From: Cyanobacteria bacterium RI_101
Lineage (GTDB): Bacteria; Cyanobacteriota; Cyanobacteriia; Cyanobacteriales; Microcystaceae
NCBI GenBank assembly: GCA_016471375.1
Contig: WGLZ01000013.1
Span: 1-64,000, forward strand
Direction: 5' to 3'
Length of the DNA: 64,000 nt
Shown: positions 2,404-30,265 of the stretch, piece by piece
Layout: each line of letters begins with the position of its first letter
Numbering within the stretch: the stretch's first letter is position 1
The notes under the pieces: model-generated
Told to the model about the DNA's origin: nothing
What the model saw: only the letters and a program-made list of their open reading frames with translations
Database searches by the model: none
Made by a program: the position numbers and the translations under genes

Positions 2404-4881
2404 ATGCTGATCCCCCTCTCTAGTTTGATCGTCGCTCTGGTTATCCTCGGCAATCTCGGGTTGCTTCTGGGGGAGCTGCCCTTTTATCAACGGTTACCGG
2501 CGCTCTGGCGCCATCGCAGGGATCCCGTCTTTTTGCTCGGCGCCGGGTTAGTCAGTCTGGTTTTAGGTTTGGGGTTGCCTGGCTATTGGGGCTGGGTTGA
2601 AGGCGCCGTCCTCCAGCAATTTAGAACTTCCGTCGGCTTACTGGCTCTCGGTTTACTCCTACTAGCCTTTTGGCGGGAGTTGTTTTGGGAAAATCCCTTA
2701 GCGAAATGGGTCAAGCGCCGGAGCCGACCCCGCCGGACTGTATTGATTTGGGTCTTGCTGTTGGGAATCATCGCCCTAGCCCTGCTGGCGCCCTTGGCTT
2801 CGTCAAAGATCATTTTTTCCAGTAGCTTAGAAAGCGTCTCCCATGTGGGCTGGATCGTTCAGGCCAAATTGGCGCTGGAGGAAGGTCAATTTCCCCTGCG
2901 GGTGGCGCCCTTGGAAAATAACGGTTGGCGTTATCCTAGCTTTCAGTTCTATAGTCAGTTTCCCTATACCGTAGCGGGATTAATCTATAAATTCATCACT
3001 CCCGATAATCCCTACAGCGCCTATCGGCTGGTGCTCTGGGGATCTTTAACCCTAGGGGGACTGTTTATCTCTCGTCTAGCTTTGGCGCTCAGCGCCTCTC
3101 CGGTGGCGGCGCTGTTAAGCGGCGTCGCCTACATGAGCGCCCCTTATTTTTTAAACAATATCCACGCCAGGGGAGCCTTCACGGAATCCGTCGCCCAGGG
3201 TCTTTTACCGATTGTTTTATTTTATAGCTGGCGAGTTTGTCAAAGACCTAATTTAAGAAGCGCCGTCTTTGCCGCCGTCGCTTGGTTTGCTCTCGGAGTA
3301 ACCCATATTATTACCTTTCTCTATGCCACGCTTTTTTTAATCCTCCTCGGCGCTGTTTTATTCTGCCGAAGTCCTCGGCGCCGGGCGTTTAAAAAACCGG
3401 TTTTCTTCATAACCCTCAGTTACCTCTGGGCTTGGGGCTTGGCGCTCTATTTTCTAGCGCCGGTTTTACTGGAATCCTCATCCCTTTCCATCCGCCAGCA
3501 GATCAACATGATCAGCCCCTTTGACACCCGTTGGATGACGCCCTTAGCTAATTTACTCTCCCCCCTTTCCCTGCCGCCGGAGCCAACCCTAGACGGAGTC
3601 GCCGCCACCTACGGGCTACACCCGGCCATTGGTTGGATTTTCCTGGCGGGTTGGGGCGCCGTGGCTTACTATCACCTGGGACAAAAATCCATTCCGGCTA
3701 AATTAGAGCCAGCCCGCGCCCTCTTTACGCCGGTTTTAAGCCTTTTTCTCCTCGCTTTTTTCCTGCTTTGGAGTCCGGTGGATATTTGGGCTTTTCTACC
3801 CCGACAGTTGTGGGTGACCCAATTTACCTTCCGCTTTTTAACCCATCTGATGTGGACGGGGGCCTTGTTAAGCGCCTGGGGGATAGTCTTAATTTTTCGC
3901 CAACGCCTCGACCGGCGACATCTCGTCTTGGGGATTTTAATTATCATTTTGCTCAACCGCCCCTGGCTTCCGGTTCCTAAAGGAAACGTGACCGTCGCCT
4001 CTGTCATGCAAGAGCCGTTATTTCGGAATTCCGGCGCCTTGGATTATCTCCACCGCCTCCCCAGCCGCCAGTTATTGGGCAATAGCGAACTGCCGGTTAC
4101 GGCGCTGGATTGGATTCCCAGTTTTGGCAGTTGGAACACCTTTTTAACCCGTAATTTGGAACTCTTCGCCCAATTTCCCGACCCGACCCAGACCCAAGTT
4201 CCCGCGGGTTACCTCGCTCGTTTCCGCTATCCTAAACCCGCCCCCGGCGGCGCTCCCCGCTTAATCCTGACGGGACGATTAGATCCCGAGGAAGACCTTG
4301 GGCCCGATAGCGTCAGTGTGGATCTCAATCAACAGCGCCTTGGGGAAATTAACCTCAACCAACGGGCCTTTAATTTAGATATTCCCCTACCTCAAATTGA
4401 GGACAAAGAACCCGATTGGACCTTGACCTTCACCCTGCAAAGTCCCGATCCCAACCGTCCGCCTCCCCGGTTATTAATTGACCAGTTTAAAATTATCGGT
4501 TTAACCCCCTCAGACAGCGCCGTTACCGTGACCCAAACCCAAAACGCTTGCCGGCGCGTCGGCGCCGTTACCCAATGCCAAGTCCAGGGCGACCCCGCCG
4601 CGGAAGTGGCGCAACTGCCCGTTCTGTATTATCCCCGACTCCTGCGGGTGGAGATTAACGGTCAACCGGCGCCCTATTTTCCCGTTCATCACCGGGATTA
4701 CCATTTAGTCGGGGTTCGTCTCCCCCCCGGCGCTCATACCGTCACCGTCGCTTTTCGGGGTCTAGTCTGGGCCAATTTCCTCAGCGCCGTCAGTTGGTTG
4801 GGGTTAATCCTAGCGGGATTTCTGACCTTGCCCCGTTTTTCGCCAGTCGCCGGAGACCGTAAACTGAAAAACATCGATTAA
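2404..4881 (+). CDS. Large membrane protein with a 6-pyruvoyl-tetrahydropterin synthase-related membrane domain
   Basis: An 825-residue polytopic inner-membrane protein. The first roughly 560 residues hold about a dozen hydrophobic segments; the rest is a soluble, probably periplasmic, beta-rich region closed by one last membrane span near residues 795-815. The stretch around residues 140-260 (SHVGWIVQAKLALEEGQFPL, a YPSFQFYSQFPY run and an ARGAFTES motif) matches the membrane family called PTPS-related, which has a GT-C-like architecture. Its role in bacteria is not established; a glycosyl-transfer function is only a guess. It is divergent from the amidase and followed 12 bases later by another membrane protein, so the two may be co-transcribed. 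Confidence 0.75.
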   Translation: MLIPLSSLIVALVILGNLGLLLGELPFYQRLPALWRHRRDPVFLLGAGLVSLVLGLGLPGYWGWVEGAVLQQFRTSVGLLALGLLLLAFWRELFWENPLAKWVKRRSRPRRTVLIWVLLLGIIALALLAPLASSKIIFSSSLESVSHVGWIVQAKLALEEGQFPLRVAPLENNGWRYPSFQFYSQFPYTVAGLIYKFITPDNPYSAYRLVLWGSLTLGGLFISRLALALSASPVAALLSGVAYMSAPYFLNNIHARGAFTESVAQGLLPIVLFYSWRVCQRPNLRSAVFAAVAWFALGVTHIITFLYATLFLILLGAVLFCRSPRRRAFKKPVFFITLSYLWAWGLALYFLAPVLLESSSLSIRQQINMISPFDTRWMTPLANLLSPLSLPPEPTLDGVAATYGLHPAIGWIFLAGWGAVAYYHLGQKSIPAKLEPARALFTPVLSLFLLAFFLLWSPVDIWAFLPRQLWVTQFTFRFLTHLMWTGALLSAWGIVLIFRQRLDRRHLVLGILIIILLNRPWLPVPKGNVTVASVMQEPLFRNSGALDYLHRLPSRQLLGNSELPVTALDWIPSFGSWNTFLTRNLELFAQFPDPTQTQVPAGYLARFRYPKPAPGGAPRLILTGRLDPEEDLGPDSVSVDLNQQRLGEINLNQRAFNLDIPLPQIEDKEPDWTLTFTLQSPDPNRPPPRLLIDQFKIIGLTPSDSAVTVTQTQNACRRVGAVTQCQVQGDPAAEVAQLPVLYYPRLLRVEINGQPAPYFPVHHRDYHLVGVRLPPGAHTVTVAFRGLVWANFLSAVSWLGLILAGFLTLPRFSPVAGDRKLKNID

Positions 4882-4893
4882 CCTTCCCTCCCC

Positions 4894-5931
4894 ATGATTC
4901 CCCTCTACGAGGACGACTTAGACTGGGCCGCCCAGGCGGGTCTATTGAACCCGGAGCAAGTGGCCCCCCTCTGGCAGGCCCTGGGGGAGCGGGCCCAAGC
5001 TCGCCCTCGTTTTAGCGGCGTCACCGCGGCTTACTATGGCGGCGCCCTGGTGGTAATGGCGGCGCTGGGACTCTTTTTAACCTTGGCTTGGGAAAATTTA
5101 GGGGGCTGGGGCATTTTCGCCCTGGCGCTGGTTTACGGCTTGGGCTTAAGCGGCGCCGGCTATTGGCTCTCCTTCCGGCAGAGGTTAACCATTCCCGGCG
5201 GTCTTTTGTTCACCGCCGCGGTTTGGATGACGCCCCTCGCGGTCTATGGTCTCCAGCGGGCCTTAAACTTTTGGAGTCAGGGAGATCCGGGACAGTACGC
5301 TAACTTTTACACCTGGATTCGGGGCAGTTGGTTCCTGATGGAAATCAGCACCTTAATTGTCGGCGCTATCGCCCTCTACTTTGTCCGCTTTCCCTTTTTA
5401 ACCTTTCCCCTGGCTTGGTGTCTCTGGTTTCTCTCCATGGATGTCGCTCCCCTCTTCTTCGGCGCCGACGCGGATTTTCGCGCCCGCGCTTGGGTCTCCT
5501 TTTGGCTGGGGTTAGGGGGATTAATCCTGGCTTATTTAGTGGATCTACGCTCCCCCCGCAGTCGGGGCGACTACGCCTTTTGGCTCTATCTCTTCGGTTT
5601 ATTAAGCTTTTGGCCTAGTTTGCCCTTCACCGGCGCCGATACGGAATGGAGCCGTTTTCTCTATTTTTTAGTAAACCTAGGGCTGATGATTCTTTCCGTG
5701 GCCCTGCGGCGCCGACTGTTAATGGTCTTTGGGGCGCTGGGGGTTTTTGGCTACTTAAGCTACTTGGCGTTTCAGGTCTTCGCCCAGTCCTTGCTCTTTC
5801 CCCTGGCCCTCTCGGCGCTGGGCTTAGGACTCATCGCCCTAGGTGTCCTCTACCAGCGCCATTGTCGGCGCTGGGAAGCCTATTTTAAGCGGCGCTGGCC
5901 CGGCGTTCAAGGTTTTTTACCAAAGGAATAG
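4894..5931 (+). CDS. DUF2157-like integral membrane protein
   Basis: A 345-residue protein with a soluble N-terminus of about 50 residues (LDWAAQAGLLNPEQVAPLWQ) followed by about nine to ten hydrophobic segments. The N-terminal 'aaGli...q...l' helix pair before a membrane array is typical of the DUF2157 group of predicted membrane proteins. No catalytic motif is visible. It starts 12 bases after the preceding membrane gene and ends 3 bases before the DUF4087 gene, suggesting one transcript from 2404 to 6369. Function unknown. Confidence 0.7.
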   Translation: MIPLYEDDLDWAAQAGLLNPEQVAPLWQALGERAQARPRFSGVTAAYYGGALVVMAALGLFLTLAWENLGGWGIFALALVYGLGLSGAGYWLSFRQRLTIPGGLLFTAAVWMTPLAVYGLQRALNFWSQGDPGQYANFYTWIRGSWFLMEISTLIVGAIALYFVRFPFLTFPLAWCLWFLSMDVAPLFFGADADFRARAWVSFWLGLGGLILAYLVDLRSPRSRGDYAFWLYLFGLLSFWPSLPFTGADTEWSRFLYFLVNLGLMILSVALRRRLLMVFGALGVFGYLSYLAFQVFAQSLLFPLALSALGLGLIALGVLYQRHCRRWEAYFKRRWPGVQGFLPKE

Positions 5932-27932: not shown

Positions 27933-28131
27933 GGGAGCGGGTTAGCTGAACACCCGCAGACTAGAGCGCCGCGACGCTTGGGTGACGGTGGATAGACTGC
28001 TTCATCCCCCTAACTGAAAATTAGGGGGGGGCAAACCGGCCCGTTGATGAGCACTTTCTCCCAAAAGCTTTGATAGTCGTTTTTTTCTCCACTAAAAGGC
28101 TTGAAACTGCTAAAATAAAGTTTTTAAAGAA

Positions 28132-28159
28132 TTGATTTACATAGTGTATACTCTATTAT
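28132..28159 (+). promoter_or_regulatory. Promoter of the candidate small RNA
   Basis: TTGATT (28132-28137) and TATTAT (28154-28159) are separated by 16 bases in AT-rich DNA, a good sigma-70 pair. Transcription would begin at or just before the G run at 28163-28166. Confidence 0.5.
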
Positions 28160-28162
28160 ATA

Positions 28163-28233
28163 GGGGCGAACGTCGGCTTCATGTCGTGTGTCCAAGTGGT
28201 AACCCTACTTAGACCTAGCCCCTCTTTGTTTTT
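28163..28233 (+). ncRNA. Candidate structured small RNA of about 70 nt
   Basis: The segment is closed by AGGGGC (28162-28167) pairing with GCCCCT (28218-28223) and ends in CTTTGTTTTT, as a terminator-closed small RNA would. Inside, GTCCAAGT and ACTTAGAC can form a second hairpin with one mismatch, and short ACG/CGT pairing is possible. I cannot match it to 6S, Yfr1, SRP RNA or tmRNA. Its presence just upstream of restriction debris and convergent to the DUF3800 gene is notable. Confidence 0.4.
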
Positions 28234-28303
28234 CAAGGGTTAATGGATTCCGGTCGCTATACCACTCGCCGTAAGGTTTATTGCGTCTATCATAAATCCA
28301 TAA

Positions 28304-29167
28304 TCAACCTATATTTTTTGGCAAGTGGCCGAAAAAACTGGCTCTCTGGGGATCACGCCGAGACTTGTATCTTGTTATACAGTTACGATTTGACATTAAC
28401 TCAGAAAAGCTCATCCAGTAAGGGTTCTGGCCAATTGGCTCCCTAACTACCAGCCTCATTCCCGGAGAGCCAAAAAACTGGTCTTCCTCTCGCTCATAGA
28501 GTCTTTGTCTCGCCCAGAGATAGTAGTCGATGATCTGCAAGCCTGCAACCTGAGATGGATAAGCAGGTTTTATAAGAACTGAACTATTTGAGCTAATTTT
28601 CCACTGAGCTTCAAAATTTTTCTGAGCTTGATTAATTGCTTGCTCTAAAGCTTCTTCGCGAGCTTCTTTACCCCGTCTGGCAATGGCAATCTCGATGACA
28701 TCCGCCTTATGAAGCATTCCTTTAAACAAGCGTTTGATCAGGTCATCATAGATGGCATTTTGTTGAAGCTTCTTACCTAAGCTTTTATAATCTGCCTTTG
28801 CCGCTTCAGCGATTTCAGCCTTGCTACGAATGGCTACAAAAACTTTAACGTCAAAAGATTGAATTAGCTCAAAAATTTTTTCTCGAATCTCGGCGTAGTC
28901 ATCTTTTGCATGGAAAGCAACGGCTGTCTTTTTGGCTTCCGGTTGCATGGAAGATATGCCTTTGTAGCGTGGGTGGGTCATTAGGCTAGAGCGAAGCGAG
29001 TCCAGTTCCCAAGCAACTTGCTCTGGATCAGCAATTTGAGCAACACCCACCATGAAAAATTTGGATGCTCCGGGTTGTCCTACGATGATGCGACCCTTTT
29101 TATCAAAAAATGAGAGATCACCTGCCTCATCGACAAAGTAATGACGAAATTGGATTTCTTCTGACAT
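28304..29167 (-). CDS. DUF3800 domain protein of a defence-type island
   Basis: A 287-residue protein opening with HYFVDEAGDLSFFD, the DUF3800 acidic motif (Asp and Glu of an RNase H-like fold), with FHAKDDYAEIREKIFELIQS mid-way and the LQIIDYYLWARQRLYE helix carrying the later acidic residue. The family is predicted to be nucleases and is often found beside restriction or other defence genes. The gene seems intact. It lies 37 bases after an HsdS fragment on the same strand. Its last 45 codons are duplicated at 29653-29792. Base composition is more AT-rich than the rest of the window, a sign of transfer. Confidence 0.8.
   Translation of the reverse strand: MSEEIQFRHYFVDEAGDLSFFDKKGRIIVGQPGASKFFMVGVAQIADPEQVAWELDSLRSSLMTHPRYKGISSMQPEAKKTAVAFHAKDDYAEIREKIFELIQSFDVKVFVAIRSKAEIAEAAKADYKSLGKKLQQNAIYDDLIKRLFKGMLHKADVIEIAIARRGKEAREEALEQAINQAQKNFEAQWKISSNSSVLIKPAYPSQVAGLQIIDYYLWARQRLYEREEDQFFGSPGMRLVVREPIGQNPYWMSFSELMSNRNCITRYKSRRDPQRASFFGHLPKNIG
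28340..28479. repeat. 140-bp direct repeat, copy 1 (3' end of DUF3800)
   Basis: Matches 29653-29792 at about nine positions in ten by eye, including long identical runs such as GAAAAGCTCATCCAGTAAGG. It encodes the C-terminus of the DUF3800 protein (FFGSPGMRLVVREPIGQNPY). Both copies border GCCGAAAAAACT-like sequence. Confidence 0.88.
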
Positions 29168-29204: not shown

Positions 29205-29669
29205 CTAGCCTGAAATTATAGCCTCTAATTCTGCGATCGCCTCATCCTCAACATCATTAGCTTCATCTTTGCATGAAAATGCATTGCGAATGTAATCTCC
29301 TACTATTTTTTGCTCTTCAATAGGGACATCTGGGCATAAAACGTTTGCTATATAATGTTCATCCACGTGGTCTACTACTCCACCGTAGATTTGAGCAAAA
29401 ATTTGATGCTTTGCATAAGGAGTTAAAAAGAATGCTGTGAGAAATCCTGCATCGTATTTGGCATCTGAGAATACCCTAATCATGTCATCTGAACCAGCCC
29501 AACTTGTATATTTTTTTGTGACTAAAGCAGCACGCGCAGCAGTGCCAGAACGAGTTATTAAAATTTCGTTCTCTCTCAACATACACTCCTTGATAGCTTT
29601 AGCATTAGCTACTGGAGAAATTGATTGATGCTGGAAGATACGAAATAATGTCGGCTCTCTGGGGAGCAC
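29205..29669 (-). pseudogene. C-terminal fragment of a type I restriction specificity (HsdS-like) subunit
   Basis: A 154-codon frame whose body reads MLRENEILITRSGTAARAAL, then YAKHQIFAQIYGGVVDHVDE and PDVPIEEQKIVGDYIRNAF. The '.Gdilit.sGt' strand, the 'yG....hi....i..i.vP.....q..i' helix entry and the C-terminal helix are typical of HsdS target-recognition domains. Only about one such half is left; the first codons (from the GTG at 29669) come from the 140-bp repeat, so the 5' part was lost by rearrangement. The only HIP1 octamer I noticed in the window lies here (29233-29240). Confidence 0.65.
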
Positions 29670-29792
29670 GCCGAAGACTGTATCCTGTTATACAATTAAG
29701 ATTTGGCGTTAACTCAGAAAAGCTCATCCAGTAAGGGTTCTGGTTAATTGGCTCCCTAACTACCAGCCTCATTCCCGGAGAGCCGAAAAAAC
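29653..29792. repeat. 140-bp direct repeat, copy 2
   Basis: Second copy of the DUF3800 3' end (minus frame FFGSPGMRLVVREPINQNPY). It is detached from any DUF3800 body and forms the junction between the HsdS fragment on its left and the HsdR fragment on its right. Confidence 0.88.
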
Positions 29793-30265
29793 TACTCAAC
29801 GACGAGCTGAAGGTTCGCGCGAAAAAGAACCTGGTGCAGAGCAAAACCCTGATGGAAATGCTAGAAAAAGCCATCAAGAAGTATCAGAATAAGATCCTCA
29901 CCGCCGCCGAGGTCATAGAGGAGCTGATCCGCATCAGTCGAGAGATCGTCGCCTCCGACGCCGAAGCCCAGAATATGGGGCCGTCAGACTACGAATACGC
30001 CTTCTATACCGCCGTGGCTAACAACGAAAGCGCCCGGGAACTGATGCAACAGGACAAGTTACGGGAGTTAGCGGTGGCGCTGACCCAGAAAATTCGCGAG
30101 AACGCCACGATCGACTGGACAATCAAGGAAAGTGTGCGGGCGAAGCTGAAAGTCATTGTGAAGCGTATCCTACGACAATACGGCTACCCGCCCGATATGC
30201 AGTTACTAGCAACGGAAACGGTACTGAAACAGGCAGAGATGATTGCCAGTGAGATGGCGGGTTAG
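29788..30265 (+). pseudogene. hsdR: C-terminal fragment of a type I restriction HsdR subunit
   Basis: From the repeat junction the plus frame reads KLLNDELKVRAKKNLVQSKT then LMEMLEKAIKKYQNKILTAA and EVIEELIRISREIVASDAEA, ending MIASEMAG. This is the helical C-terminal region of HsdR, the translocase/nuclease subunit. The nuclease and helicase domains are missing. A GTG at 29834 could still start a 143-residue protein, but no function is expected. Opposite orientation to the HsdS fragment shows that the locus was rearranged. Composition is closer to the host than that of its neighbours. Confidence 0.82.

Follow-up and report, generated by a model that had tools for sequence, protein, structure and literature searches.

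Convergent RNA and protein genes are familiar from type I toxin-antitoxin pairs such as txpA/RatA and bsrG/SR4, in which a long antisense overlap joins the antitoxin RNA to the gene of a small peptide toxin, and which provide a precedent for antisense control by a convergent RNA. RNAs lying beside genes of the DUF3800 family are also an already known kind of element. The DUF3800 RNA motifs reportedly originate from a study of 224 candidate structured RNAs, and one of them, DUF3800-VI (RF02915, typed Cis-reg in Rfam), is a compact three-way junction adjoining a DUF3800 gene, with a consensus of 52 positions, a P2 loop of 5 nt and a P3 loop of 4 nt. Two others, DUF3800-I and DUF3800-IX, are named in passages of a further publication (PMC11701678). 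In type III systems (ToxIN, TenpIN and CptIN), the antitoxin is described, in portions of two accounts, as a set of tandem RNA repeats located upstream and belonging to one transcription unit (PMC12373285, PMC5086642). Finally, passages of one of these accounts indicate that in AbiF/RCd22 a structured RNA, which lies ahead of its gene and contains two abiF motifs, neutralises a toxic protein through direct binding, both in cis and in trans (PMC12373285).

The DUF3800 proteins themselves, which are found in chromosomes, plasmids and phages, are described in part of one source as displaying an RNase H fold with catalytic rearrangement, and as having been associated earlier with putative non-coding RNAs (PMC10910872); excerpts of that and a second source further place them next to Cas12a2 and within certain CRISPR loci of types VI-F and V-A2 (PMC10910872, PMC12669027). 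A literature search on DUF3800 returned no paper that establishes the function of these proteins, and the RNA considered below is not described in the passages on DUF3800 that were available.

The locus in question lies within a window of 64,000 nucleotides (the whole stretch of DNA that was analysed) from Cyanobacteria bacterium RI_101. An earlier note on this window had proposed a small RNA of an undescribed kind, with its own promoter, a closing stem, a further internal hairpin and a T-rich end, convergent with an intact DUF3800 gene in an island of restriction debris. The features now assigned are as follows.

28123 to 28128, plus strand: -35 box TTTAAA (weak), separated from the -10 box by an 18-nt spacer
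28147 to 28152, plus strand: -10 box TATACT, at a conserved offset from the RNA motif
28162 to 28223, plus strand: core of the three-way-junction RNA gene, 62 nt, assigned by covariance model and covariation
28162 to 28167 and 28218 to 28223, plus strand: closing stem P1, AGGGGC pairing with GCCCCT
28170 to 28177 and 28183 to 28189, plus strand: P2 hairpin, loop UUCAU
28190 to 28199 and 28205 to 28214, plus strand: P3 hairpin
28215 to 28217, plus strand: junction CUA
28224 to 28234, plus strand: T-rich tail, the probable 3' end of the RNA as judged from sequence
28205 to 28207, minus strand: stop codon of the DUF3800 remnant (antisense CTA), within a P3 arm of the RNA gene
28205 to 28303, minus strand: C-terminal remnant of DUF3800, identified by translation (profile positions 243 to 273 at 28211 to 28303, E 6.2e-8)
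28340 to 28471, no strand assigned: MITE of 132 bp with ends GGCTCTC/GAGAGCC, which splits DUF3800
28469 to 29167, minus strand: N-terminal part of DUF3800 up to the insertion (clade profile 1 to 233)

The closing stem and T-rich end were thus found where the earlier note had drawn them, as was the convergence with the DUF3800 gene; internal pairing was found as well, in the form of two hairpins within a three-way junction rather than one. Taken on the window alone, the element was barely above chance, and the single-sequence fold and the promoter and terminator scans did not separate it from background. Folding of the lone 73-nt RNA gave -22.8 kcal/mol versus -16.7 for shuffles (z = -2.1, equalled by 9 of 200 shuffles), the 5 kb scanned contained six promoter-like sites versus 4.4 expected, and a terminator scan around the RNA gave approximately the expected result. 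Its acceptance as a real conserved RNA gene is due to the comparison of homologues, since the window by itself would not suffice; the sequence comparison supports that acceptance firmly, and the gene would be transcribed into an RNA of about 62-80 nt.

Homologues were collected by several routes. A search at the DNA level gave matches in 9 of the order's 291 genomes, including that of the organism itself, and the RNA was absent by that search from four congeners (G001-G004). Scanning a named genome collection for an exact pattern yielded 32 loci, 25 of which were accepted by structure; among the seven set aside, five (L039, L042, L048, L051 and L056) misfold for the family and two (L060 and L061) fold partly. 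The accepted loci are distributed among cyanobacteria (Nostoc, Dolichospermum, Westiellopsis, Chlorogloeopsis, Nodosilinea and others), with six further contigs binned as Auribacterota, 'bacterium', Bacteroidetes, Phycisphaerae, Pseudomonadota and Brocadiaceae, bins that may be wrong. A covariance model, R1, subsequently located the RNA at 17 places in 15 of 386 cyanobacterial genomes and also reached distant variants; in the organism's own genome the window RNA was its sole match at E <= 0.001 (81 bits, E 5.4e-20).

In an alignment of 28 distinct homologues, made after the removal of three duplicate cores, 96.7% of cells correspond to standard pairs and double changes occur at 10 pairs. The number of doubly changed cells (57) compares with a mean of 20.2 in shuffled alignments, none of 500 of which reached it, and the signal was lost when pairing partners were slid along the same alignment. 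A wider alignment of 37 distinct homologues, fitted to the covariance model, gave 101 such cells versus 29.7. The invariance of the core is partly imposed by the search pattern, and covariation was therefore judged on P1 and P3. P2 is nearly invariant, with a C-G to A-U exchange in one copy and outer pairs broken in a few variants, these P2 changes coming from copies found by routes other than the exact pattern. The window RNA retains all of its pairs except for a C-A mismatch at 32-50 that is common within its subgroup. The earlier note had made its proposal depend on conservation of the stem and its neighbourhood in other genomes, and both were found, with covariation in the 28 homologues and a long DUF3800 match at 18 of the 25 accepted loci.

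Several divergent copies may be recorded separately. A variant found at L083, L084, L085, L086 and L114 carries AAAAUU 5' of P2 and CCUAUA 3' of P3; a separate DUF3800 subclade accompanies it at L083, L084 and L114, and at L086 no DUF3800 is in view. On a plasmid of Annamia dubia (L103), two copies (4739-4801 and 5483-5543) lie on either side of a broken DUF3800, one of them 50 nt ahead of a 336-aa frame; this frame contains an HELGH motif, is presumably ImmA/IrrE-like and is followed by a 231-aa frame. The two partly folding matches are to the core motif, one in a type III restriction locus of a Pseudomonadota metagenome-assembled genome (L060, 3712-3764, 35.6 bits) and the other in a Bipolaricaulota genome of the same sort (L061, 2643-2692, 34.9 bits), these scores being inflated because the same pattern had selected them; no DUF3800 is apparent among the frames listed for either, and the two are chance matches or distant relatives. 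A phage reservoir for the RNA and its DUF3800 clade received no support from the viral contigs and phage records searched: the viral contigs contained no exact match to the RNA core and the phage records no match to the region, and clade DUF3800 was absent from both (by two peptide patterns only in the viral contigs).

The same alignments fix the strand of the gene. Among 824 cells, 95.5% form standard pairs on the RNA strand versus 84.2% on its complement, and on the RNA strand 110 cells are G-U versus 17 that are A-C; the RNA strand is assigned because G-U pairs favour it. Most homologues carry a sigma-70-like promoter shortly before the RNA. With upstream regions anchored on the conserved motif, a -10 hexamer (at least 5/6) was found 14-32 nt 5' of that motif in 33 of 40 distinct regions, versus 10.3 in shuffles (sd 3.0; maximum 18 in 300 shuffles), and a -10 together with a -35 (at least 3/6) in 31 of 40 versus 7.0. 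An automatic P1 finder, which misplaced the stem in several rows, gave a -10 in 27 of 39 versus 11.2 when used as the anchor. The TTGATT/TATTAT pair favoured by the earlier note is thereby displaced: the position conserved across homologues points to TATACT at 28147-28152, with TTTAAA at 28123-28128, as the probable promoter of the window RNA.

Comparison of gene neighbourhoods then established the association with DUF3800. At 18 of the 25 accepted loci DUF3800 matches over a long stretch, from a gene that is either whole or broken; three loci (L038, L058 and L067) have a short C-terminal remnant, and four (L040, L055, L068 and L069) have no match. All of the matches run convergently with the RNA, which they either touch or approach to within about 55 nt. 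Uninterrupted pairs are present, for example, in the cultured cyanobacteria Westiellopsis prolifica IICB1 (L043) and Chlorogloeopsis fritschii PCC 6912 (L050). The covariance search for homologues beside other DUF3800 genes that the earlier note had proposed gave a similar picture, since 9 of the 17 places in the 386-genome survey adjoin DUF3800 and two more (G101 and G265) adjoin a remnant. Counted against a pair are the places where DUF3800 is wholly absent, six of 17 in the survey and four of 25 in the collection. In the reverse direction, all 11 genes matching the clade profile at E <= 1e-50 in the 386 genomes are accompanied by the RNA, nine of these RNAs being survey matches and two weaker (G325, E 1.7e-4; G464, E 9.6e-6); two of the 11 genes are broken (the organism's own and that of G254). 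Lower-scoring DUF3800 pieces (a fragment in G270, and those of G302 and G529) lack the RNA.

The two genes are not simply adjacent but interlocked. Wherever the gene is near-complete, at 22 loci in all, the DUF3800 stop codon falls inside the RNA gene; in 12 of them it is antisense to the conserved CUA that precedes P1, in nine it lies in a P3 arm and in one in P1. The resulting convergent overlap is about 9-19 nt when P1 is taken as six pairs (less in L115). In the nine loci with the stop in a P3 arm the junction CUA is retained although it does not serve as the stop codon, and is thus kept for the sake of the RNA; the stop within the RNA gene in turn implies that RNA and DUF3800 are inherited as one unit. 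Distances between RNAs and between proteins correlate (r 0.916, n = 22; none of 5000 permutations as high), with those of the poorly registered L083 and L084 RNAs overstated, a correlation that linkage alone can explain. The pairing proposed in the earlier note therefore finds strong support in its conservation, both among cyanobacteria and on the six contigs binned elsewhere, and the comparison shows that an RNA gene, conserved and specific to one strand, is locked to a single clade of DUF3800.

Where the protein gene has been lost or truncated, the RNA has a somewhat higher share of broken pairs, with 7 of 216 cells at orphan or truncated loci versus 4 of 384 at loci with DUF3800 (P = 0.063, pair 32-50 excluded). 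Excluding the outermost pair as well, a choice made after the data were seen, gives 6 of 206 versus 1 of 366 (P = 0.010). This excess fits dependence on DUF3800 rather than a role for orphan RNAs. A natural decay series is also apparent at what seems to be one dnaK-dnaJ locus, where the RNA accompanies an uninterrupted DUF3800 (L064, whose locus was judged from frame sizes), a frameshifted one (L030) and none (L055).

The DUF3800 gene of the window, taken to be intact in the earlier note, proved to be split by the MITE, which is flanked by an 8-bp target duplication, AAAAAACT, at 28332-28339 and 28472-28479. A stop codon separates the two DUF3800 profile pieces, and the last residues of the open reading frame at 28304-29167 are contributed by the MITE. 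That element has 14 matches in the organism's own genome and none in five other genomes searched; in the window its family is present at 28340-28477 and 29653-29790, and an open frame crosses both copies. The window copy is thus probably a decaying unit, with its predicted nuclease half broken by the MITE and its RNA half intact. A second DUF3800 of another kind, uninterrupted, resides elsewhere in the same genome (L088, G000:C39:26290-26886, open frame 272 aa), and a DUF3800-VI RNA (67.5 bits) lies immediately upstream of it.

In Pfam, the window protein matches DUF3800 alone at E <= 0.001 (PF12686; 31.8 bits versus a curated cut-off of 21), and the proteins of its relatives also fall in or near that family; the PADLOC candidate-defence model DUF3800_VII matches the window protein as well (E 4.9e-14). 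Relative to the rest of Pfam DUF3800, this clade, whose members are about 273 aa in length, has its own RNA and its own C-terminus. An AlphaFold2 model of the L043 protein (pLDDT 77.5, 14 sequences) matched RNase H2 by Foldseek (E 7.3e-05) and by VIA-align (best Z 11.7, rmsd 2.8, 164 aligned residues), with Argonaute and Piwi rows scoring lower; the structural matches listed are to RNase H2/H3 and Argonaute, with no ToxN-like fold among them. The clade is accordingly predicted by this model to possess an RNase H2-like fold. An alignment of 22 proteins, which omits L049 because its DUF3800 contains an internal stop, has 33 invariant residues, including D13, E14, D17, D90 and D214, and the VDEAGD sequence of the clade presumably resembles the DEAG motif of RNase HII.

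The earlier statement that the RNA matches no family holds for Rfam 15. A cmscan search found no relevant family in the whole window, nor in nine relatives' loci at E <= 1; at permissive thresholds (E <= 5 for the element, E <= 10 for L065) there was no DUF3800 RNA match, the best matches of the element being snoRNA models at E 0.42 and above, and the surroundings of L114 and L115 also gave no Rfam DUF3800 RNA match. The letters of the RNA core were not found in a literature text search, and nothing in a literature listing tied IsaR1 or other cyanobacterial sRNAs, which were also considered, to the window RNA. Searches for DUF3800-I and DUF3800-IX gave no match in 146 genomes, and none in the controls either. 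DUF3800-VI exceeds its gathering score at L088, L124, L125, L126 and L127, falls below it at L128 and is absent from the E. coli plasmid loci L122 and L123. This RNA and that of the window display no sequence match in either direction, and whereas DUF3800-VI lies upstream of, and on the same strand as, a gene of another DUF3800 clade, the window RNA has its own promoter on the opposite strand and overlaps the 3' end of its gene. That both are three-way junctions, yet differently placed, suggests that shape matters and that place is free. The element is therefore not of an undescribed kind, as had been proposed, given the DUF3800-associated RNAs already in Rfam; what is new, apart from those motifs, is this RNA sequence family and its interlocked convergent layout, although the RNA could equal one of the motifs of the 224-candidate study that never entered Rfam.

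The neighbourhoods of the relatives are mixed. A sample of 76 neighbour proteins (from 153 frames at 22 relatives' loci) contains type I and type IIG restriction, Mokosh-type MkoA and DruA proteins, as well as DnaJ and metabolic proteins; the families were taken from the matches listed (the first 25 of 94 and the first 25 of 253), and ten proteins were looked at separately. Several of the RNA neighbourhoods consist of housekeeping genes, and a Geminocystis plasmid copy lies within a type I restriction gene cluster. As raw neighbour counts without a background, these are only suggestive of an enrichment for defence genes. In the window, a C-terminal fragment of a type I restriction subunit (T1RH-like_C) at 29834-30265 and a 154-aa frame with no Pfam match at 29205-29669 are consistent with the island of restriction debris that had been described there.

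The reading that we prefer, at roughly even credence, is that the RNA is one half of a DUF3800-RNA pair and most likely serves to keep the nuclease from acting. An RNA of about 62-80 nt would fold and bind the RNase H2-like DUF3800 as a dedicated partner; the bound RNA would keep the nuclease inactive, in the manner of the RNA antitoxin of type III-like systems such as AbiF/RCd22; and the nuclease would be set free once a phage or stress halts RNA synthesis. Binding of the protein by the RNA is likely, and restraint of the nuclease by it is a proposition with about equal weight on either side. The RNA is found without DUF3800, and clade DUF3800, in the genomes surveyed, never without the RNA, which is the pattern expected of an antidote, although target size alone (about 820 bp versus 62) may explain this asymmetry.

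AbiF/RCd22 is the best working precedent for such a pair, as both consist of a structured non-coding RNA gene adjoining a protein gene, with binding and toxicity being extrapolated for the DUF3800 pair; they differ in that RCd22 precedes its gene, and in their proteins, Abi_2 in the one and DUF3800 in the other. Type III systems would work on the same principle if the nuclease is restrained through binding of the RNA, but the window RNA is a single unit on the opposite strand, with no tandem repeats, and the RNA is single-copy at each locus except for the two separate copies on plasmid L103. The convergent type I pairs resemble it in that an RNA overlaps the 3' end of a protein gene, and differ in the extent of the overlap, the conserved RNA fold and the size of the protein.

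A different role for the same ribonucleoprotein, in which the RNA would be an activating or targeting cofactor and the active complex would cut a target such as phage nucleic acid, is rather unlikely. It would produce the same co-occurrence of RNA and DUF3800, and both the predicted RNase H2/Argonaute-like fold and the reported proximity of DUF3800 to Cas12a2, type VI-F and type V-A2 loci (in the passages cited above) are compatible with it; yet the consensus 62-nt core is almost wholly paired, with unpaired stretches of at most 5 nt, and its loops are similar within subgroups rather than diverse. This scarcity of unpaired sequence leaves no room for a long guide and disfavours a guide role. 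Less probable still is control of DUF3800 expression through antisense pairing of the 3' ends or transcription collision, without binding of the protein. The overlapping ends of the convergent genes at all 22 loci speak for such control, but the overlap is short, the best-conserved parts of the RNA (P2, its loop and the junctions) lie outside it, and compensatory changes maintain P1 and P3.

The possibility that the element is merely a two-way transcription terminator of DUF3800 seems very remote: when one mismatch is allowed, P1 extends over 14-19 pairs in L040, L047, L063, L065 and L115, and T runs follow some of these, but a terminator has no need of a conserved P2 loop, junctions and its own promoter, the G-U pairs favour one strand, and intact RNA copies survive where DUF3800 is gone. 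A small peptide read from the AUG of the P2 loop can be dismissed almost entirely, for although an AUG follows the loop in 37 of 39 aligned copies, a stop occurs 2 to 10 codons later in many of them, residues past MPCV are not conserved, and sequence changes track base pairing.

We suggest tentatively, and with somewhat more doubt than confidence, that these loci represent a widespread and undescribed defence or addiction module, in which an RNase H2-like DUF3800 nuclease would be checked by a three-way-junction RNA encoded within the 3' end of the nuclease gene. The presence of a compact three-way-junction RNA with a second DUF3800 clade, in another position and on another strand, is an argument for an RNA that acts in the service of the protein and not as a regulator of its mRNA. 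If the reading of restraint by the bound RNA is true, then DUF3800 RNAs in general would be protein-binding antidotes, free in position and strand, rather than the cis-regulators that the Rfam typing of DUF3800-VI suggests. The interlocked gene ends described here also illustrate a way in which the genes of a protein and of an RNA can become inseparable.
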